A stretch of 13,749 bases of DNA from Thermococci archaeon (GTDB taxonomy: Archaea; Hadarchaeota; B88-G9), in contig QMUK01000027.1 of the NCBI GenBank assembly GCA_003660555.1, positions 1 to 13,749 of the forward strand, in the 5' to 3' direction. Below, one piece after another: positions 95 to 13,090 of the stretch (the stretch's first letter is position 1; each line of letters opens with the position of its first letter). Both the position numbers and the translations under genes were made by a program. A model generated the notes under the pieces. That model was not told the origin of the DNA and did no database searches. It was given only the letters and a program-made list of their open reading frames with translations.

Positions 95-1396
95 ATGTCC
101 GACGTGGTTTACCTAGCTCCGGAAGAAATTCCCAAAAAGTGGTATAATATACTGCCAGATCTACCAGAACCTTTGCCTGAGCCTAGAGATCCAGAGGGGG
201 AAGAATCTAGGATAGATCTCCTCCCTAAGATATTCTTGAAAACTGCTCTGAAACAGGAGTTCTCTAAGAGGAGATGGATAAGGATTCCAGACGAAGTGCT
301 TGAGATGTACATGCACATATACCGACCTAGGCCACTAGTAAGGGCGAGAAGGCTAGAGAAGTTCCTGAAAACTCCGGCTAGGTTGTACTACAAGAGGGAG
401 GATCTGAGCCCTACAGGTAGCCACAAAGTCAATACAGCCATAGCACAAGCTTATTATGCTGCTGAAGAGGGATATTCTAGGTTGACTACCGAGACTGGCG
501 CTGGGCAATGGGGCTCGGCTTTGTCTCTAGGAGCGAGCTTGATGGGCCTAGAAGCTACTGTATACATGGTGAGGTTTGCATACAATTGGAAACCGGGTAG
601 AAGAACATTGATGAAGCTTTATGGAGCAGAGTGTCTTCCCTCTCCTAGCGATAGGACGGAATTCGGGAGGAAACTTCTGAAGAAGGATCCAAACCATCCT
701 GGATCCCTAGGTATTGCTGTATCTGAGGGGATAGAGGATGCTTTGAAGAACGAGGACGCTGTTTATTGCCTAGGAAGTGTTCTAAATCACGTGCTACTGC
801 ATCAGACAGTAATAGGATTAGAGGTGCTCCGACAATTGGAGGAAATAGAGGAAGTTCCAGACTTCATGATAAGTTGTCTTGGCGGAGGCAGTAATTTCGG
901 TGGATTTGCCATTCCTGCAATAAGGAAGAGGTTAAAGGGTGAGTGGGATACGAGATTCATAGCAGCTCAATCGATGGCTGCCCCGAACTTGGTGAAAGGG
1001 GAGTACAAATACGATTTCGGGGATGCTGCTGGATTCACTCCTCTCCTAAAGATGTATACCTTGGGACACGATGTGGAAATGCCTACGATCTACGCTGAGG
1101 GACTTAGATATCACGCAGCTGCGCCCATAATAAGTCTTCTTAGGAAACACGGGATAGTAGAAGCTGTGGCATACGAAACTGATGAGAAAGAAGTGTTCGA
1201 GGCAGCTAAACTATTTGTATCTAAGGAAGGTTTCGTCCCTGCCCCAGAGTCTAGTTATTCAATAAAAGCTGCAATAGACAAGGCTATAGAGGCAAAAGAA
1301 AAGGACGAAGAATGGGTTATAGTTTTCAACGTAAGTGGGCACGGATTCGTGGACTTGGAGGCATTTAACAAGGTGCTGTTCAGTAATGGTACCTAG
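95..1396 (+). CDS. trpB2: Tryptophan synthase beta chain, TrpB2 type (PLP-dependent)
   Basis: The 433-aa protein is a fold-type II PLP enzyme that condenses indole (or indole released from indoleglycerol phosphate) with serine to make tryptophan. The PLP lysine is K111 in the motif KREDLSPTGSHKVN (100-113). The substrate loop ETGAGQWG is at 133-140 and the phosphate-binding GGGSNFGG at 263-270. The C-terminal NVSGHGFVDL is at 412-421. The long N-terminal extension (about residues 1-75) and the roughly 430-residue length fit TrpB2 rather than TrpB1, which is nearer 390-400. ATG 95 is chosen because GTGGGG ends 5 nt before it; ATG 90 is out of frame. No trpA or other trp genes are adjacent, which is common for trpB2. 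Its last 17 bp overlap the 3' end of the convergent AAA gene. Confidence 0.93.
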   Translation: MSDVVYLAPEEIPKKWYNILPDLPEPLPEPRDPEGEESRIDLLPKIFLKTALKQEFSKRRWIRIPDEVLEMYMHIYRPRPLVRARRLEKFLKTPARLYYKREDLSPTGSHKVNTAIAQAYYAAEEGYSRLTTETGAGQWGSALSLGASLMGLEATVYMVRFAYNWKPGRRTLMKLYGAECLPSPSDRTEFGRKLLKKDPNHPGSLGIAVSEGIEDALKNEDAVYCLGSVLNHVLLHQTVIGLEVLRQLEEIEEVPDFMISCLGGGSNFGGFAIPAIRKRLKGEWDTRFIAAQSMAAPNLVKGEYKYDFGDAAGFTPLLKMYTLGHDVEMPTIYAEGLRYHAAAPIISLLRKHGIVEAVAYETDEKEVFEAAKLFVSKEGFVPAPESSYSIKAAIDKAIEAKEKDEEWVIVFNVSGHGFVDLEAFNKVLFSNGT

Positions 1397-2414
1397 ACGT
1401 TTCCTCTATCGTGCCGTAAAGCATCTTGTATGCTTTGAGTAGGTCCTCTGTCCCTAACACTTTTTTTCCTTCTATTATTGCCTTTTCCACTGCTATTTTG
1501 AACAGGTTCTTCACGTCCCTAGGGGAGAGATCACTCACCAATGGTATGACACTGGACTTGTCTATGTTGACTTCTATTATCTTCTCGGCCCTCTTAGAGT
1601 ACACGTCTATCACTTTAGACATGAGTCTCTCTCCCCTGACGTCTACGTTTATTCTCTTCGGGAATCTGGATAATACTGCTGGGTCAACTACCTCTACATT
1701 ATTGGTAGTCGCTATTGGAAGTACCGGGGCTTTGCTCTTTGCCAATCTGTCCAATCCAGATATTATTGCATTTCTTAACTCTATTGCATCTCCTCTCAGT
1801 CCATAGGAGAACGAAGGAAGTGCTAAAGCTTCTATCTCCTCCAGCATTAGGAGTGTTGGTCTCTTAGTTCTAGTTAGTTCTTCGAAGTGCATTTCTATGA
1901 GTTTGGCTCCTTCTCCAGCATATACTCCCTGTAAATCCGTGCAGAATATTTCCTTTGTGTCCACACCTTCCTCTCTAGCTAGTATTACTGGTCCTTCGCT
2001 TTTTCCTGTTCCTGGTCTTCCATACAGAAGTATTCCTCTTCTTCCAAATTCTCCGATCAATCTTGAGTACTTACTATGTTTTAACAGCTTTATTTCATAT
2101 AGGACCATTTCTTTTACTTCTTTCGGCCATATCAATTCTTCGGATGATCTGAAAGACGTATAGGCCTGTCTCAACCTCAAGACGTCTTGATGAAGCACTA
2201 CCTCTACCTCAGTCATTTTGCCTATTTTGGCAGGTGAGGGCCTGATTTCCAATACCTTTGCAAAATACATGTCCCCTACTTCTATTACGTCTCCTCTCTT
2301 CACCTCTCTTTGTTTCATCAAGTGATTCCTGATTATTATCTCTGCCCCCTTTGGATCCAAGTCTAAGGTTCTGGTTAGAGAAATTATTTCTACTCTAACT
2401 TTTCTGGCGTACAA
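1380..2414 (-). CDS. Cdc48-like single AAA+ ATPase
   Basis: The 344-aa protein has one AAA+ module behind a Cdc48-type substrate-handling domain. Residues about 25-75 (HLMKQREVKRGDVIEVGD and onward) resemble CDC48 domain 2. Walker A is GRPGTGKS at 132-139. Walker B is LLMLEEIE at 188-194, with Glu in place of the usual first Asp. The sensor-1 region is ATTNN at 236-239, followed by arginine-finger candidates R250 and R254 and a C-terminal helical lid (about 295-335). There is no second ATPase domain and no membrane segment. The start is TTG 2414, with GAGGTGA upstream at good spacing. It is the last gene of the minus-strand cluster, 26 nt after the aminotransferase. The ATPase class is clear; the substrate (protein remodelling or unfolding) is inference. 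Confidence 0.8.
   Translation of the reverse strand: MYARKVRVEIISLTRTLDLDPKGAEIIIRNHLMKQREVKRGDVIEVGDMYFAKVLEIRPSPAKIGKMTEVEVVLHQDVLRLRQAYTSFRSSEELIWPKEVKEMVLYEIKLLKHSKYSRLIGEFGRRGILLYGRPGTGKSEGPVILAREEGVDTKEIFCTDLQGVYAGEGAKLIEMHFEELTRTKRPTLLMLEEIEALALPSFSYGLRGDAIELRNAIISGLDRLAKSKAPVLPIATTNNVEVVDPAVLSRFPKRINVDVRGERLMSKVIDVYSKRAEKIIEVNIDKSSVIPLVSDLSPRDVKNLFKIAVEKAIIEGKKVLGTEDLLKAYKMLYGTIEETSRYHY
1461..1467 (+). terminator. Possible T-run terminator of trpB2
   Basis: Seven consecutive T residues lie about 65 nt after the trpB2 stop, the kind of U-tract that terminates archaeal transcription. It lies inside the opposing AAA gene, where it encodes a Lys-Lys stretch on the other strand, so it may be coincidental. 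Confidence 0.3.
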
Positions 2415-2440
2415 GCCCTCACCTCTGTTTCCTTCGAGAA

Positions 2441-3577
2441 TTACGTGCCTTCCCTATAAACTTTACCTAGTATCTCTGCCCCTTTAATCAAATTATCCAC
2501 TGAAGTTGCATATGATATCCTTATATTATTTTTCCCGACCTCACCGAACTCCTCTCCAGGAACCACTGCCACTCCAGCGTTTATGGCTTTTCTGCTGAAC
2601 TCTCTGGAATCTTCACCTATGTTGGGAAAGAGATAGAAAGCTCCTTCAGGCTTATTCGACTTTATTCCATGTTTTCTAAGTTCTCTTATTAGTATGTCTC
2701 TTCTTTTCCTGTATTCTCTTACTACTTCTCTCACGAAGTCTTGTGGGCCCCTAAGTGCTTCCAGTGCTGCATACTGAGCTATCGAATTCGCGTTAGCCAC
2801 AGAGTATTGGTGGACTAGTGCTACTGGGGATATTAAGTCCCTCCTGCCTATGGCGTAGCCCACTCTCCAACCAGTCATCGCATATGTCTTAGAGAAGCTA
2901 TTTACTACTATCACCCCACCGTCGTGACTGAACTGTGCTGCACAATAGTGCGTGGCATCATACACTATCTTTTCATAGACTTCGTCCGATACCAGTATTA
3001 TTTCGTTGTCTTCTGCCAGTTCAACTATTCCTCTTATTTCCTTCTTCCCCATTACGGCTCCTGTCGGATTACTCGGTGAATTTATTAATATCATCTTAGT
3101 CTTGTCTGTTATCTTCTCTTGAACCTGCTCTGGTTTGAGTACAAATTCGTCTTCCTCGAAACACTTTGCCCTTACTGGAACTCCCTGAGCCAGCTTAACG
3201 TAGGCTGAATAATAAGCGAATCCTGGATCAGGGATAATCACCTCGTCTCCCGGGTTCACGTAAGCTTGGATCACATCATACATTGCCTCACAAGCGCCCA
3301 CTGTAACTACGACTTCGTCCGGATCATAGTCCAGACCATATTCTGAGGAGTATTTCTCACATATGGCCTCTCTTAGCTCTATTATCCCAGGATTTGGTGT
3401 GTAATGGGTTTTGTTCTCTCTGAGTGCTCTAATGGCCGCCTCTTTTATATTCTCTGGCGTATCGAAGTCCGGTTCTCCTATCCCCAAGTTTATCACGTTT
3501 CCCTTTCCCTGCGCCAGATCAAATAGTTCTCTTATTACTGACTTACCAACTCCGCTTAGCCTCTTAGCCTCCTCCAT
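2441..3577 (-). CDS. Class I/II (fold type I) PLP aminotransferase, aspartate aminotransferase family
   Basis: The 378-aa protein has the full aspartate-aminotransferase Igamma-type signature. It shows LGIGEPDFDTP (31-41), HYTPNPG (58-64), NSPSNPTGA (166-174; N170 contacts PLP), SDEVYEKIVYD with D198 and Y201 (197-207), the Schiff-base lysine K230 in SFSKTYAMTGWRVGY, and R353 in IRISYA for the substrate carboxylate. It transfers amino groups between amino acids and 2-oxoacids; whether the preferred donor is aspartate, an aromatic or a branched-chain amino acid cannot be read from sequence. The start is ATG 3577, with GGTGAT 6 nt upstream. Its first 22 bp overlap the end of the secreted-protein gene, so translation is probably coupled. 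The location in a replication operon is unusual for such an enzyme. Confidence 0.88.
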   Translation of the reverse strand: MEEAKRLSGVGKSVIRELFDLAQGKGNVINLGIGEPDFDTPENIKEAAIRALRENKTHYTPNPGIIELREAICEKYSSEYGLDYDPDEVVVTVGACEAMYDVIQAYVNPGDEVIIPDPGFAYYSAYVKLAQGVPVRAKCFEEDEFVLKPEQVQEKITDKTKMILINSPSNPTGAVMGKKEIRGIVELAEDNEIILVSDEVYEKIVYDATHYCAAQFSHDGGVIVVNSFSKTYAMTGWRVGYAIGRRDLISPVALVHQYSVANANSIAQYAALEALRGPQDFVREVVREYRKRRDILIRELRKHGIKSNKPEGAFYLFPNIGEDSREFSRKAINAGVAVVPGEEFGEVGKNNIRISYATSVDNLIKGAEILGKVYREGT

Positions 3578-7391: not shown

Positions 7392-9420
7392 CTTCCAACT
7401 CTTCTAACAGAAGTTTTATTTCTCTATCTAAATCTGGGATGGACAAGCTATTCACCCGCATCTCCAAATTTCCGGTCATTTCGTTTCTGGTTAGTGTCCC
7501 GCTAGCTATTATTTCCTTACCTAATATATCGTTTGGACCAATTGAGCTTAATAGTTCCTCTTCGAAGCCAAATGCCCTGACTACTCCGGTTCCATCATCT
7601 AGGACTAGGGAGAAGAAGAACTTTTCTATGTCGTTACCACACTCTCGGCACTTCTTGCCATAGACCGTTGAGCCGCACTTCTCACAGACAGGTAACTTCA
7701 CCTTGACCACCGTTCCCCTTACTTCGGCAATCTCTCCCTCCTCAAGAGATGCTATTTCCCTTCTCTTTTTCTCGTCTACCCCCTTTAGTACCTCCGTCTC
7801 CTTGCTCACTAGTATCTTCCCTCTTCCTACTATTCTGCCTCCCTTGACTCGTATTACGTCTCCTCTTCTAAGCATTAGAATCTTATCCATTTCCTCCCTC
7901 TCTGCTACTAATTCTAGTACGTTTCCTCCAAATCTGGCCCCTACACGACATGTCATCTCTTCCTCAGTCGTTACTGGGTTGGAAATCACCTCAAGTACCC
8001 CATCGAAATGGACTTCTATTATTTCAGCTCCTGGAGGATTCACTTCAACTCCTGAATTCGGGCCTACGTTGAGGTATATTCTCTCGCCCCTTTTCTGGAT
8101 ATATGCGTCTGTTATGGATAGTAAATCCCCTATTTCTATCCCTCTTGCAAATTCCGACTTGTCTCTCCAAAAGTAGGAAGATATTCTTCCTGTATCGTCC
8201 CCGAGTATCAGATGGGTTCTCCTAACACCGAATCTCTCTTCTTCCTCTCCTTTTTGAATGACTCTAGCCCTTAGGTTGACTATTGGTGGGAGTATCTCCC
8301 GAATCTCTCTTATCTTTAGAAAACCAACGGGAGGTGTTCTCACATCGAATGAGGAGAGAGAGGAGTACTCCGTGTAGGAAGCTTCTATTTCTCCTCCCAG
8401 TCCCAGCTTGGTGTATATGGCGTTTAGTTTCACCGACTTGCCTATGTCTATTTTCTCCCAATCCCTCACGGATTCGTCCCAGAAAGTCACTCTCATAACT
8501 CCCGTTTCGTCCCTCAGCGTTATATCCGCTACTCTTCTCTTGACTCCGTCTATTTCTGTCTCTCTAATTCCTGTTTTGTTCTCTACAATTCCAGCTACGC
8601 TTGCCATTACCCCTGGTAGAAGATCGGATATTTTCGTTCTGCTCGGCACGTCTATCTTGGAGCCGTAATCCTCTAACTCGGAATACTTCCCCAAATGCAG
8701 CTCTATCTGTCCGAATTTGTTTCTGACCACGTAGAGGTTTCTCGCCAGATAAGATTTACCTACTTCTAGGTCAAAAATTGAAACCAGAGGTATTATTCCA
8801 GTTTCGTCTCCTATTATGTAGGTGTTTTCTCTGACTTTCTCAATTACGTTGAATAAAACTACTTCCGGCCTCTTCCCCTCGTATATCTCAACGATCTTAG
8901 ACCTAGTTGGCCTGTACTCCGGAACTTCCTTACACTCCGTTCTCTCTAACTTGGTGTCCCATGAATAGTATAGTTCTAAGGATCCCCCTAGGCCTCTCCT
9001 AACCCTAGCCCTAGATAATTTGATGCAATCTCCAACTCTGAGACCTTCCAGGTTCTTCTCCTGCTCGTTCCAAAGTGTCAACCTTATTTCTCCCGTTTTG
9101 TCCAATAGGTACACAGAGATTACCCTTCCCTTTCTTCCGTTTTTATAGGAGAACTCCCTGGGTCCTTGGATGTGTATTATTCTGCCTTCTATGGTCACGC
9201 TCTCTCCTTCATCCCTTATTTCTGAGATTCTCATTTTCCTTTCCTTTTCGTAGTCTTCTTCTAGATCTACTCCCATTTCCCTAGCCACTATGTAAGCGGC
9301 TCCCTCCTTGCTTATCAGCCCCTCGAACTCCTCCACTTTCTCCTCTACCTTTCTCTCGAATTCGTCTATGTCTAGACCTGCTTCCTTTATTCTTCGATAT
9401 ATCTCACTCATGGGTGTCAA
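7384..9420 (-). CDS. rpa: Replication protein A, multi-OB-fold single-stranded-DNA-binding protein with zinc ribbon
   Basis: The 678-aa protein is built from repeated OB folds, visible as similar 'D(D/E)TG.h.h..W/F' strands. These lie at about 75-158 ([13 protein letters not shown]), 183-245 ([10 protein letters not shown]), 272-352 ([13 protein letters not shown]), 381-455 ([12 protein letters not shown]), possibly a degenerate fold at 462-545, and 562-660 ([13 protein letters not shown]). The last one is interrupted by a zinc ribbon with C579, C582, C591 and C594. This resembles the long single-chain RPA of methanogens such as Methanocaldococcus. It coats single-stranded DNA in replication and RadA-mediated repair. 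TTG 9420 has GGAGG 7 nt upstream inside the orc1 end; an alternative ATG at 9411 removes three residues. It overlaps orc1 by 4 bp and radA by 8 bp. Confidence 0.93.
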
Positions 9421-10592
9421 ATCAATTCCTCCAGAGCCTTGGATACTTTCTCGGGTGGGACTCCTAGGCTTATCTCTTTGGTCCTACCATATCTACCTTT
9501 ACTCACTACCTTGGCGTTTATTATTCCCAACATGTCTAGCTCGGAGATTAAGTCCGAAACCCTTCTCTGCGTCAGGACTTCTACCCCGGTTCTATGGCAA
9601 AGATCTCTGTATAGATCGTATACCTCTCCAGTGCTGGATGGTCTGCCCAGTAATAAGACACTGTATAAGACTAACTTGGACTGCTTCGGAAGAGTCCTTA
9701 TTACCTCTATTATTCTGTCTTGCTCGAGTTTCTCCTTGGCTTTCCTAACGTGACTCTCTTCCACTCTCTGGGATCCCTCTTCCTCAGCTATTTCTCCGGA
9801 AATTCTCAGTAAATCTAGGGCTCTCCTAGCGTCTCCGTGTTCCTGTGCTGCTAGAGCCGCGCATAGGTTTATTGCTTCTTTTGTGACTACCCCGTCCTTG
9901 AAAGCTATCTTAGCTCTTTCTCCTAATATGTCTCTTAATTGAAGCGCATTGTACGGCTCGAACACTATTTCCTCTTGACTCAAGCTGCTCTTAACCCTTG
10001 GGTCTAAGTAGTCCACGAGCTTCAGATCGTTGGTTATTCCCACCACACTCACCTTGGAGTTCCTCAACTCAGAGTTCATTCTAGTCAAGTTGTAGAGGAC
10101 GTCGTCTCCACTCTTTTTGACTAGCTTATCGATTTCATCTAGGATTATAACTACGAACCTCTCCTCCGAATCTACTGAATTGAAAAAAGATTTGTACACT
10201 TGGTCTGTTGGCCAACCGGTTAGTGGTACTTCTTCCCCAAACGTGTAGGCTAGATTCGCTAGAACTCTATACCTAGTGTCCACTTCAACGCAGTTTATGT
10301 AAACTACCTCTATGGGTATCTGCTTTTTCTCACCTACTTGTTTTAGCTCTCTTCCAACGAATTTGGCTACTGCTGTCTTCCCTGTGCCGGTCTTACCGTA
10401 TATGAAGACATTCGATGGTGTTTCTCCTCTCAATGGAGAAACCAAGATTCTGGCCAGTCTGCTTATTTCCCTCTCTCTGTGAGGTAGATGTTCTGGGGTA
10501 TATGTATGTCTCAGTGCCTCTTTATTACGAAATATCGTTTCTCTTCTCAGAAGCGTATCGAACAATTCAGTTAGGGTCTTCTGAACTTCCAA
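9417..10592 (-). CDS. orc1: Orc1/Cdc6-family replication initiator
   Basis: The 391-aa initiator has an AAA+ module with Walker A GKTGTGKT (66-73), Walker B VIILDEID (148-154), sensor 1 GITND (185-189) and sensor 2 GDARRALDLL (253-262). A winged-helix DNA-binding domain follows (about 300-385, with QRRVSDLISELDMLGII as the recognition-helix region). The protein binds Origin Recognition Boxes, remodels the origin and recruits MCM. The adjacent ORBs (10613-10922) are the expected cognate sites, which makes this the Orc1-1 type. The start is TTG 10592 with GGTGAGGGG upstream. It is the first gene of the minus-strand cluster and its 3' end overlaps rpa by 4 bp. A mini-ORB in its leader suggests autoregulation. 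Confidence 0.96.
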   Translation of the reverse strand: MEVQKTLTELFDTLLRRETIFRNKEALRHTYTPEHLPHREREISRLARILVSPLRGETPSNVFIYGKTGTGKTAVAKFVGRELKQVGEKKQIPIEVVYINCVEVDTRYRVLANLAYTFGEEVPLTGWPTDQVYKSFFNSVDSEERFVVIILDEIDKLVKKSGDDVLYNLTRMNSELRNSKVSVVGITNDLKLVDYLDPRVKSSLSQEEIVFEPYNALQLRDILGERAKIAFKDGVVTKEAINLCAALAAQEHGDARRALDLLRISGEIAEEEGSQRVEESHVRKAKEKLEQDRIIEVIRTLPKQSKLVLYSVLLLGRPSSTGEVYDLYRDLCHRTGVEVLTQRRVSDLISELDMLGIINAKVVSKGRYGRTKEISLGVPPEKVSKALEELI

Positions 10593-10612
10593 AGCCCCTC
10601 ACCCCCTCACAC

Positions 10613-10628
10613 TTCTCCAGTGGAAGCA
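10613..10628 (+). promoter_or_regulatory. Mini-ORB in the orc1 promoter
   Basis: CTCCAGTGGAAG (10615-10626) carries the ORB dyad core TCCAGTGGA seen in the other boxes. A C-rich tract (10601-10607) lies at a slightly larger distance than in the full ORBs. It lies just downstream of the orc1 TATA box at the predicted start site, where bound Orc1 would block transcription. Confidence 0.6.
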
Positions 10629-10631
10629 GAG

Positions 10632-10646
10632 GTATATATCGTTATT
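10632..10646 (-). promoter_or_regulatory. Promoter of the orc1-rpa-radA operon
   Basis: On the minus strand GATATATACC (10631-10640) is a good TATA box with GCGAAATAAC immediately upstream as a BRE. The expected start is about 25 nt downstream, near 10610, giving a leader of about 18 nt that contains the Shine-Dalgarno GGTGAGG. An ORB core lies between the TATA box and the start codon. Confidence 0.65.
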
Positions 10647-10665
10647 TCGCGTGGACCGTAGTGTC

Positions 10666-10698
10666 ACCCCCTTGTTTCCAGTGGAGCGGATGGAGTAT
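10666..10698 (+). promoter_or_regulatory. Origin Recognition Box 1
   Basis: ACCCCCTTGTTTCCAGTGGA followed by GCGGATGGAGTAT. The C-run (the G-string on the other strand) plus the TTTCCAGTGGA core is the archaeal ORB consensus bound by Orc1/Cdc6. It is identical to ORB 2 over 32 of 33 bp. Confidence 0.9.
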
Positions 10699-10730
10699 TA
10701 CACTGGAGCAGCGTCACCTAGGAGAGTGGG

Positions 10731-10763
10731 ACCCCCTTGTTTCCAGTGGAGCGGGTGGAGTAT
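10731..10763 (+). promoter_or_regulatory. Origin Recognition Box 2
   Basis: ACCCCCTTGTTTCCAGTGGA followed by GCGGGTGGAGTAT. This is a direct repeat of ORB 1, starting 65 bp later (about six helical turns), with one A/G difference at its 25th base. The conserved 13-bp tail beyond the usual ORB suggests an extended recognition unit. Confidence 0.9.
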
Positions 10764-10890
10764 GCGTTCCTCCCAAGTGTGAATCTGGACTTCTAAGTAA
10801 GGGTAGTCAAGTTTATATACCAGAGAGATCAATAACTTGGGGGGATTCTGTTTTGATCTAGTGGTGTACCACGATACCACTATCGTTCTG

Positions 10891-10922
10891 TTCCAGTGGC
10901 TCCACTGGAAGAGAAGGGGTGG
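10891..10922 (-). promoter_or_regulatory. Inverted ORB 3 with back-to-back core
   Basis: CTCCACTGGAAGAGAAGGGGT (10900-10920, shown in two parts: core CTCCACTGGAA, G-string AAGGGGT) is an ORB in the opposite orientation to ORBs 1 and 2. A second core, TTCCAGTGG (10891-10899), lies back-to-back with it and forms a 20-bp near-palindrome. The 10-bp GTGGCTCCAC occurs twice, at 10896-10905 and 10919-10928. Confidence 0.8.
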
Positions 10923-11016
10923 CTCCACCCGAAGGATATCTCGAACATATCCCGATTTTATTATTATCGTGATACATGTGTATTTCAAGTAGGCGGAAGG
11001 GTCATTTCCTCTCCAC

Positions 11017-11057
11017 CAAACAACTAATCTCGATTCTCATGAGACATTAGTTGTTTG
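11017..11057. repeat. 41-bp palindromic repeat, copy 1
   Basis: The arms CAAACAACTAAT (11017-11028) and ATTAGTTGTTTG (11046-11057) are perfect 12-bp inverted repeats. They enclose 17 bp with a second, inner palindrome TCTCATGAGA. It is identical over all 41 bp to copy 2. It could form a cruciform or be a dyad operator. It lies between the origin boxes and the rightward promoter. Confidence 0.9.
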
Positions 11058-11080
11058 TCACAGACTACCTTTGCCCCTGC

Positions 11081-11121
11081 CAAACAACTAATCTCGATTC
11101 TCATGAGACATTAGTTGTTTG
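11081..11121. repeat. 41-bp palindromic repeat, copy 2
   Basis: This is an exact copy of the repeat at 11017-11057, starting 64 bp later, with an unrelated 23-bp interval between them. It ends about 10 bp before the BRE/TATA of the rightward promoter, a position suited to a regulator of that operon. It is also close enough to the origin to be a replication element. Confidence 0.9.
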
Positions 11122-11130
11122 CGCACGAAC

Positions 11131-11146
11131 GGAAAATTATATATAT
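11131..11146 (+). promoter_or_regulatory. Promoter of the rightward RNA / Ro60-like operon
   Basis: GGAAAA (BRE-like, 11131-11136) runs directly into TTATATATAT (11137-11146), one of the best TATA boxes in the window. Transcription should start near 11165-11168, just before the GCCACC that opens the candidate structured RNA. Confidence 0.65.
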
Positions 11147-11164
11147 GGGTGCATGTCTACCCTC

Positions 11165-11295
11165 TACAGCCACCCTCGGGGGAGATACGTTTTGCCACTC
11201 CCTATGTATACCTCCCTCTGGGGAGGTCTTTAGGGTCGGCAGGGCCGAAAGTCTCCCCTCATCTCGGTGGCATTTCCTCCTGCTTCTGCTTTTTT
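11165..11295 (+). ncRNA. Candidate structured small RNA (Y RNA-like?) or structured leader
   Basis: The roughly 130-nt stretch between a TATA box and a T6 tract folds by eye into nested helices. The terminal stem is GCCACC (11169-11174) with GGTGGC (11266-11271). After an internal loop there is a 9-bp stem, 11178-11186 with 11251-11259, including two G-U pairs at its ends. Inside are a hairpin CCCTA (11200-11204)/TAGGG (11231-11235) topped by ACCTCCC (11210-11216)/GGGAGGT (11221-11227) with a TCTG loop, and a small hairpin CGGC/GCCG (11237-11247). The 3' tail is pyrimidine-rich. A terminal stem, internal loop, second stem and U-rich 3' end resemble the general plan of Y RNAs, and the operon encodes a Ro60-like protein. 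I see no match to tRNA, SRP or RNase P RNA. A cis-acting leader of the next gene is the alternative. Confidence 0.45.
11272..11295 (+). terminator. Pyrimidine tract with T6, possible terminator or attenuator
   Basis: A C/T-rich run after the terminal stem ends in six T residues (11290-11295), the form of an intrinsic archaeal terminator. The next start codon is only 11 nt further, so either some transcripts read through (attenuation) or the T-run marks the 3' end of a processed RNA. Confidence 0.4.
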
Positions 11296-11306
11296 GCGGT
11301 GGGAAG

Positions 11307-11576
11307 GTGCGAGCTAAGAGGGTATCGACCCTAGATAGGGAAACAAACGAGGAAGTAGGTGTACTTGAGAAAGTGCGAAATCAGAGGAAGATACTGGCTT
11401 TGGGTAAGGAAATAGAAGTACCAGAGGCTTTGGAGGAACTTCTCGAGAGAAACCCAATTGAGGTCCTGAGTAAAGTAGATCCAGAATTGGCTAGAGAATT
11501 GAAGGGCAAGAGCATAGAGATCAGGACGGAAGGAAGGTACATAGTGATCTACAGATCAGACGCTGTTTTCGGTTAG
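11307..11576 (+). CDS. Small protein ending in Gly, possible prokaryotic ubiquitin-like (Prok_Ub/PRTRC-C-like)
   Basis: The protein is 89 aa from GTG 11307, with GGTGGG 4 nt upstream. A longer in-frame start at 11115 would read through the palindromic repeat, promoter and RNA and is not credible. A charged N-terminus (1-25) is followed by a strand (KILALGKEIEVP, about 28-39), a helix (EALEELLERN), NPIEVL, DPELARELKG and a terminal strand pair with EGRYIVIYRSDAVFG, ending in glycine. The order xPxEVL...PELA...G..hhh.hxx...G resembles, from memory, small ubiquitin-like proteins of the Prok_Ub/PRTRC protein C family, which co-occur with E1-like enzymes. An E1-like gene lies two genes downstream. 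It ends in Phe-Gly rather than Gly-Gly. It is a real gene by context; the function is a hypothesis. Confidence 0.7.
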   Translation: MRAKRVSTLDRETNEEVGVLEKVRNQRKILALGKEIEVPEALEELLERNPIEVLSKVDPELARELKGKSIEIRTEGRYIVIYRSDAVFG

Positions 11577-11581
11577 GGGGA

Positions 11582-13090
11582 GTGCAGTTGTCGAGGTCCC
11601 ACAGGGCCTCAGAGCCAAACGAATCATTAGTCGAAGTTCTGTTCCACTACTTGACTGGAGGATCTAAGTGGGATCTACGCGTTAAGAGCTTGCACTTGAG
11701 GGAGATCTCTAGGGAGGATCCAGATCCATTGGCTAGAGTAATCGCCTACTGCATAGAAAGAGGAGTTTATCACAGAAAAAGACTGTGCAGTGCTCTGCTT
11801 TCACTCCTAAACCACTCCTCGAAGAGATACAGGGAAACCGCTTGGACCCTCATCCAGAGGGTCCCCCTACCCCATTTATTACATTTCTCCGAGATAGTAA
11901 ACGGTAAGGAGAACACTAAGAGATTGAGAATGGCTATAGCAGTTAAGATAGCTAACTCGAGCAGAGAGGAAATAATGAAAGCATATTTCTCATCTCCTTG
12001 TAGATTCAGGAGACTCTTCTCCTATCTCAGGCTTCCGAGAGAGAAAATAAATGGAAAGAGAATATCACATGAGAATTACCTCTTCGCCTCTAATCTCTCT
12101 AGGCTCTCGGTCGAAGAGGCAATCGAGAAGCTTGGAGTCGGACTAATCGATCTAGTGAAGTACGCGCCTTTTCACGTGCTTGTGAACGTAGTCCAGAATC
12201 CCAGGGAGGCAGAAGAGATTGCTAAGTCTTCTAAGCCAGAGGACTTCTTGAGGCATGCCGTGTGGTACAGAACGGTCCTAGGAGAGAAATTCGAGGAGAT
12301 AGCCCGAAGGAAGATCAGGGAGATGAGGAACCCATTTGCCTTTTCCCACATATTGGAACACCTCAAGGAGAACGAAGCTATAACGGAAGACCTGGAGAGG
12401 GAAATCCTGAGAAGAATGAGGGAAGTTGCCGAGGAGGTAATAGCCAGAATTGGCCTAAGGGACTTGGCCATAATATTCGACGTATCAGGATCCATGGCAG
12501 AGTCCAAGGAAATAGCTGAGGCCTTTTACAGGTTCTTCAGCTCCAAGGCTGGAGTGAGATACCTCATAGCCTTCAGGGAATACGCCTTTCTGCTCGATCC
12601 AGAGGAGATCAAAGAGATCGAAGTGGATGGAACTACCTCCATAGGGAGCTCAATACTCCTCCTTGCAAAGGAAATTAAGAGAAGTGGAAATAGAGTCAAA
12701 TTGATAATTCTAATCAGCGACTTTGAGGAGAACACTCCTCCCTATTTGAGAGAAACGATAGGCCTCTTGGAGAAACTAGGGAGACCACCTCTGATTTTCG
12801 TAAGAGTCCCAGGGAGTGGAGATGAGAGAGTAAGGGCGAGCGAGCTAAATTACCCTTGCGCGGAGGTAGAAGTGAGTGAGTTTCACCCAAGGCTAGCTCT
12901 TGGAATAATATCAAATGTCTTAGAGTTAGCGAGCACCATCTACAACGAGGGAGGGCTAAGAGAAGAAGAGATTACATCCAGAAGACCAATGCTTGAGGAA
13001 ATAGGATCCATAACTCTCCCAAGGAGACCAAGGGAAAGTCTGAGAAAAGGTTTCTTGGCCAAACTCCTAGGAGGAGGGGAGGAGAGATGA
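11582..13090 (+). CDS. TROVE-vWA protein, Ro60-like RNA-binding protein
   Basis: The 502-aa protein has a helical-repeat N-terminal half and a C-terminal von Willebrand A domain, the layout of Ro60/Rsr. TROVE-like features compared with animal Ro60 are RVPLPHLLHF (93-102), RLRMAIA (114-120), RRLFSYLRL (143-151), NLSRLS (171-176) and especially APFHVLV (195-201), matching the family's HPFHILI segment. The vWA domain (about 293-455) has a full MIDAS: DVSGS (300-304), T351/T352 and ISDFEE (D380). Ro60 proteins are rings that bind Y RNAs on the outside and single-stranded 3' ends of misfolded RNA in the central hole; that role here is inference. Shine-Dalgarno GGGGGAG abuts GTG 11582 but is ideally spaced for TTG 11588, so the true start may be two codons later. 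It overlaps the E1-like gene by ATGA. Confidence 0.8.
   Translation: MQLSRSHRASEPNESLVEVLFHYLTGGSKWDLRVKSLHLREISREDPDPLARVIAYCIERGVYHRKRLCSALLSLLNHSSKRYRETAWTLIQRVPLPHLLHFSEIVNGKENTKRLRMAIAVKIANSSREEIMKAYFSSPCRFRRLFSYLRLPREKINGKRISHENYLFASNLSRLSVEEAIEKLGVGLIDLVKYAPFHVLVNVVQNPREAEEIAKSSKPEDFLRHAVWYRTVLGEKFEEIARRKIREMRNPFAFSHILEHLKENEAITEDLEREILRRMREVAEEVIARIGLRDLAIIFDVSGSMAESKEIAEAFYRFFSSKAGVRYLIAFREYAFLLDPEEIKEIEVDGTTSIGSSILLLAKEIKRSGNRVKLIILISDFEENTPPYLRETIGLLEKLGRPPLIFVRVPGSGDERVRASELNYPCAEVEVSEFHPRLALGIISNVLELASTIYNEGGLREEEITSRRPMLEEIGSITLPRRPRESLRKGFLAKLLGGGEER

Follow-up and report, generated by a model that had tools for sequence, protein, structure and literature searches.

A candidate Ro60-like/Y-RNA-like ribonucleoprotein operon coupled to an E1-like protein in Hadarchaeota

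Introduction

Does a divergent vWA protein encoded at the end of a Hadarchaeota contig have the architecture of Ro60, and could the structured RNA encoded directly upstream of it be a Y-RNA-like partner? Work on the ribonucleoproteins (RNPs) of Ro60 and Y RNAs comes from animals and a small number of bacteria, and debate over what these RNPs chiefly do continues. Archaeal TROVE as such is already known: canonical TROVE genes have been described from tRNA gene clusters of archaea (PMC6333295) and TROVE proteins in Borgs (PMC11208441). In the literature searched, we found neither the phrase 'archaeal Ro60' nor the combination of TROVE, vWA or ubiquitin-like, and ThiF. What is new here is a divergent ring lineage, its leader RNA, an unpermuted tRNA mimic in a related RNA and the linkage to an E1-like protein. 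Our reading, to which we give a probability of roughly two in three, is that the operon encodes a divergent Ro60-like/Y-RNA-like RNP and, coupled to it, an E1-like protein; the RNP would act as the Ro60/Y and Rsr/YrlA RNPs do. The window referred to below is the whole stretch of DNA analysed (13,749 nt).

Results

Layout of the locus

The plus strand carries, in order, a TATA box, the structured region, a small open reading frame (ORF), the gene of the 502-amino-acid protein and a ThiF-like gene, and the contig ends with this operon (Table 1). The TATA box and the T6 tract, which the preliminary description had placed around a structured RNA, are both present in the sequence, and the transcription start was predicted from the TATA-to-start spacing generally known for archaea. 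The paired 42-nt palindromes, just 5' of the TATA box, are candidate operators; when 22 nt of the palindrome were searched, they were confined, within the genome, to this contig. Beside the Cdc6 gene (10593-10950) lie several copies of CTCCAGTGGAA / TTCCAGTGGAG with adjoining C- or G-runs that resemble origin recognition boxes, and therefore the operon adjoins a probable replication origin. Vertebrate Y RNAs have a role in replication initiation; nothing at the locus points to a link between that role and the probable origin.

Table 1. Features of the Hadarchaeota locus, numbered from the first nucleotide of the window.
Feature	Position	Strand	Basis and remarks
Cdc6 gene	9417-10592	-	Origin-like repeats in the adjoining intergenic region
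42-nt imperfect palindrome, copy 1	11016-11057	none	Upstream of promoter; candidate operator
42-nt imperfect palindrome, copy 2	11080-11121	none	100% identical to copy 1 (repeat search)
TATA box TTATATATA	11137-11145	+	Sequence; predicted transcription start ~11167, at the base of the RNA stem
Candidate Y-RNA-like RNA	11167-11295	+	Fold, and matching position and plan in G340; ends predicted; ~128 nt if the 3' end is the T6 tract
Outer (lower-stem) helix, 5' arm GCCACC	11169-11174	+	Pair probability 0.99-1.0; G340 counterpart GCCUCC
Outer helix, 3' arm GGUGGC	11266-11271	+	G340 counterpart GGAGGC
Inner helix, 5' arm, beyond 3x6 internal loop	11178-11186	+	Predicted base pairing
Inner helix, 3' arm	11251-11259	+	Predicted base pairing
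Upper module, one elongated hairpin with internal loops	11188-11247	+	Predicted fold; tRNA cloverleaf at the equivalent place in G340
T6 tract, possible RNA 3' end or termination site	11290-11295	+	Sequence
Small ORF, 89 aa, ending in FG	11307-11576	+	Homology to G340 small protein; alternative start GTG 11376
Ro60-like protein, TROVE-like HEAT region and MIDAS vWA, 502 aa	11582-13090	+	Fold, MIDAS, profile comparison
ThiF/E1-like protein, 205 aa	13087-13704	+	PF00899, 9.9e-12

A predicted Ro60 fold outside the TROVE profiles

The ORF of the 502-amino-acid protein, with the motifs quoted in the preliminary description, was confirmed. All elements of the MIDAS are present (DVSGSM, residues 300-305, giving D300-S302-S304; T351/352 in DGTTSIG; D380 in ISDFEEN), and all of these residues are kept in the sole homologue, a protein of the archaeal genome G340. 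The preliminary description had staked its Ro60-like assignment on a TROVE match in profile searches, and there was none: PF05731 (TROVE) matched neither the 502-amino-acid protein nor the G340 homologue, nor anything else in the Hadarchaeota genome, and PF25045 (Ro60 vWA) matched neither protein, the vWA part giving just weak VWA_CoxE/VWA_2 matches. Control TROVE proteins, including divergent plasmid ones, match both profiles (PF25045 at 1e-15 or better), and a profile search found canonical TROVE genes in 10 of 196 genomes.

Comparison of folds gave a different answer. The AlphaFold model, made from the single sequence, has a mean pLDDT of 62 (61.6), with values of 77-89 over most of residues 46-150 and about 60 in the vWA part. 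Foldseek returned five matches in the PDB at E<=1e-3, all of them Ro60 (9nen at 4.0e-5, 1yvp, 2i91, 1yvr), which span 508-540 columns and hence nearly the full length. The top six entries in VIA-align were also Ro60/TROVE structures, led by Rsr (2nvo; Z 11.1, rmsd 5.7 A, 359 residues aligned) and followed by a TROVE domain (9kop, 10.2), the Ro60 of phage phiLo (9l5y, 10.0) and human Ro60 (9nen, 10.0), whereas plain vWA domains reached Z 8-9 over about 150 residues. These top-ranking full-length matches support a predicted Ro60 fold, in which a HEAT-repeat region, which would form the ring, precedes a C-terminal vWA domain.

Profile-to-profile comparison was more equivocal. HHalign of the two-member family against 12 TROVE proteins gave a probability of 81 (E 1.2e-5); the HEAT part alone scored 22.4, against 23.6 for the best column shuffle, and 3 of 200 shuffles were as high. 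H187, in the Y-RNA-binding region, is invariant in the 12 TROVE proteins, and the two archaeal proteins share an invariant H163, in a part where the alignment is uncertain. Because the standard profiles have no match and the HEAT part falls within the shuffles, we limit the name Ro60-like to the fold of the protein and do not class it as an orthologue of Ro60; the earlier assignment thus stands on structure and fails on standard profiles. Two of the weaker protein matches, both vWA proteins and one of them MoxR-linked, were inspected and are unrelated outside the vWA domain.

The leader RNA of the Hadarchaeota locus

The outer and inner helices proposed in the preliminary description do form in the predicted fold, with pair probabilities of 0.82-1.0, and the two inner hairpins that it had drawn above them are replaced by one elongated hairpin. 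The leader has a minimum free energy of -56.2 kcal/mol (z -3.94), and none of 200 shuffles folded equally well. However, the segment at 11161 ranks ninth by z among 682 segments scanned across the 13.7 kb and is thus only moderately unusual, so folding energy alone is not decisive and was rejected as sole evidence. The structural plan itself, defined as an outer helix of at least 6 Watson-Crick pairs, an internal loop and an inner helix of at least 8 pairs at the predicted transcription start, appeared in 4 of 3000 shuffles of the Hadarchaeota leader and in 5 of 3000 shuffles of the G340 leader, figures that are indicative only, since the thresholds were chosen after both RNAs had been seen.

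No credible Rfam match was found for the whole 13.7-kb stretch or for the RNA alone, and neither YrlA (RF02553) nor the Y RNA models matched the Hadarchaeota RNA. A tRNA-like module is absent from it, and the preliminary description had likewise seen no obvious match to that of YrlA. A DNA search for the leader RNA in 61 genomes returned the self-match only.

A homologous operon in another archaeal phylum

Among 394 relatives, a homologue of the 502-amino-acid protein occurs in a single genome, G340, which belongs to another phylum (47% identity, E 1e-133). A further 392 genomes of that phylum had no additional homologue; the operon is patchily distributed, in 2 of about 780 archaeal genomes. 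Protein searches of genome contigs and viral contigs gave no further homologues, and tblastn of phages and plasmids with the operon proteins gave no match. Both loci share the order small protein (43%), Ro60-like protein (47%) and E1-like ThiF (51%). In the G340 locus (L036), a 100-amino-acid gene without a convincing family match is inserted between the Ro60-like protein and ThiF (7492-7794), and a 242-amino-acid protein, likewise without a convincing family match, follows ThiF (8320-9048); the Hadarchaeota contig stops before the equivalent place. Beside the G340 operon (L036 1456-4899) lie a probable VapBC pair and an IS607-type transposon (resolvase and TnpB), families that were assigned by eye, suggesting that the G340 operon is in a mobile island.

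The G340 operon is also directly preceded by a structured RNA, in which a 7-bp helix (AGCCUCC/GGAGGCU), a 1x3 internal loop and an 11-bp helix enclose a tRNA. Both RNAs are predicted to begin about 28-30 nt past the centre of a TATA-like box. Their outer helices, GCCACC/GGUGGC and GCCUCC/GGAGGC, differ by one compensatory pair, A-U to U-A, across these two loci. An alignment of the two leader RNAs with MAFFT was set aside as meaningless because their upper modules differ. The preliminary description had proposed the Hadarchaeota RNA as the Y-RNA-like partner of the protein; this still tentative proposal gains independent support from an equivalently placed and built RNA with a tRNA-like module in G340.

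The tRNA module of the G340 RNA

The stem of the G340 RNA encloses a complete, linear tRNA-Ile(GAU) cloverleaf, attached via its acceptor end. ARAGORN and Rfam both score the nested element as a good tRNA (71.6 bits), and its GAU anticodon and encoded CCA are intact, as would suit a functional extra tRNA gene, the likeness of the two leaders then being chance. Such a gene does not sit easily with the flanks, which pair at -38.4 kcal/mol, unlike those of all 16 other tRNA genes used as controls (-1.2 to -11.2 kcal/mol), nor with the C1-A72 mismatch. Furthermore, G340 has a second, ordinary tRNA-Ile(GAU), common to a sister genome without the operon, and CCA is encoded in the nested tRNA, unlike the other G340 tRNAs listed. 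We consider an ordinary function as a tRNA gene highly improbable.

A more serious rival, and the main one, takes the structured region for a 5' leader of the operon mRNA that acts in cis, and not for a separate RNA; such a leader might stabilise the mRNA or serve as a riboregulator, and the ring protein possibly binds it in a feedback loop. The stem ends only 35 nt before the first start codon in the Hadarchaeota locus and about 18 nt before it in G340; the first ORF therefore cannot have its own promoter, and with a promoter common to RNA and ORF a leader-only role is possible. In addition, the T6 tract that might end a separate RNA is present only at the Hadarchaeota locus. However, a whole tRNA cloverleaf, as in the homologue, would be odd for a leader and is typical in kind for Y RNAs, and the YrlA RNAs of Salmonella also lie within an operon, rsr-yrlBA-rtcBA (PMC7790460). 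A leader-only role is thus, in our judgement, unlikely, and we continue with the Y-RNA-like reading.

The small protein and the E1-like protein

The small protein shares a conserved core with its G340 counterpart (43% identity over 63 amino acids) and is predicted to form beta-beta-alpha-beta-beta (AlphaFold from the single sequence, pLDDT 77). A family search gave no match, and Foldseek gave nothing significant (best E 0.49, with protein L entries among the first rows). Two assignments were discarded: PRTRC protein C, which had no NCBIfam match, and ribosomal L6, to which there is a weak similarity (E 1e-3 to 0.05) that we put down to chance, L6 being a universal protein and the profile match having an E of 0.016.

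The ThiF-like protein is 51% identical to that of G340 and similar to the E1-E2 models of PADLOC. This neighbour, the failure of the TROVE profiles and the patchy occurrence (in 2 of about 780 archaeal genomes, and in G340 on an island that also carries a transposon and a probable VapBC pair) would also fit a HEAT-vWA member of an E1/vWA conflict-type operon, resembling Ro60 in fold only and binding no Y RNA. Yet the sole significant full-length structural matches of the protein are Ro60 entries, and RNAs with the Y plan lie upstream in both loci. We regard a conflict-type operon as improbable, and prefer a Ro60-like RNP to which an E1-like protein is coupled.

Comparison with known Ro60 and Y RNA systems

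In the archaeal protein, as in Ro60 and Rsr, a MIDAS vWA domain comes after a HEAT-repeat region, and the fold matches 9nen, 1yvp, 2nvo and the phage Ro60 9l5y over the full length. Unlike Ro60 and Rsr, the protein is without a PF05731 or PF25045 match, its structural identity is 12-15%, and its operon partners are an E1-like protein and small proteins, not rtcBA.

YrlA RNAs, 90-150 nt in length, have ends that pair and a tRNA-like domain, and they tether Rsr to PNPase (PMC8394870). The archaeal RNAs, by their predicted ends, fall in the same size range and share the paired 5' and 3' ends, the asymmetric internal loop (5x8 in YrlA, 3x6 in Hadarchaeota, 1x3 in G340) and the second stem; they are likewise encoded beside the ring-protein gene, in the same operon and upstream at both loci, and the G340 version shows tRNA mimicry. 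However, the tRNA-like module of YrlA is a permuted tRNA, running in the RF02553 consensus as stem, T arm, acceptor-like hairpin, D arm and stem, whereas the tRNA of G340 is complete, unpermuted and has its anticodon arm, and the Hadarchaeota RNA has no such module. The YrlA model scored just 12.7 bits against the G340 RNA, to the D arm. Similarly, the archaeal RNAs resemble vertebrate Y RNAs in a lower stem that carries a small, asymmetric bulge, an upper stem and a variable top, and the 7 bp and 1x3 nt of G340 are close to the described Ro60 site (PMC4726728); they differ in having no sequence match, in a lone unpaired nucleotide that is A, not C, and in an archaeal promoter inside an operon. 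On this comparison, we read the pair as one that would work like Ro60 and its Y RNA, yet neither archaeal RNA as a member of YrlA.

Canonical archaeal TROVE genes share with the present family the adjoining tRNA-like genes (PMC6333295), but they match Pfam TROVE and two of them come with YrlA-type RNAs, whereas the Ro60-like family has neither. In these two, sub-threshold YrlA matches lie directly upstream of the canonical TROVE ORF: in L079 at 1243-1292 (+; 33 bits), before the ORF at 1396-3003, and in L080 at 2526-2622 (-; 32 bits), before the ORF at 853-2424 (-). Both are likely to be archaeal YrlA-type Y RNAs. The control TROVE loci L071, L073 and L078 have YrlA matches beside the TROVE gene. 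On the Rhizobium plasmid of L078, two clear YrlA-like RNAs and a third, weak one stand in tandem between TROVE and rtcB (2276-2697), and on a Picosynechococcus plasmid (L074, 121-469) tandem tRNA/YrlA-like matches upstream of the TROVE gene form a possible Y RNA array.

Discussion

The favoured reading of the locus can be set out as a sequence of steps. A single promoter would drive a transcript whose first 105-130 nt or so are predicted to fold in a Y-RNA-like way: the ends pair, a second stem follows across an asymmetric internal loop, and the upper module beyond it varies. The same transcript would then encode the small, ring and ThiF proteins. The RNA would be released from its own leader by processing, and the ring protein, by analogy with known systems, would bind its outer stem. 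The upper module may then gate the ring or tether a partner such as an exonuclease ring or an enzyme that handles tRNA. As the upper module of the G340 RNA is a whole tRNA-Ile mimic, tRNA-binding partners are indicated. The substrates would be aberrant or damaged RNAs, and a modification step may be contributed by the E1-like protein and the small protein, which is beta-grasp-like.

A bolder version, which we offer only tentatively, would make this a separate archaeal lineage of Ro60-like RNPs, whose Y RNA took up a whole, unpermuted tRNA independently of YrlA, and which is functionally linked to a ubiquitin-like/E1-like pair that modifies either the ring itself or its RNA-bound targets.

If the favoured reading is right, both a protein lineage and a form of RNA would be added to a known RNA-handling system, and an archaeal operon this small and self-contained, which already includes the RNA, would offer a new and tractable model. 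As the G340 RNA suggests, tRNA mimicry arose more than once among Y RNAs, which bears on the role of the upper module, and the linkage to an E1-like protein hints at a candidate enzymatic partner. Finally, TROVE-like proteins exist that present profile libraries miss.
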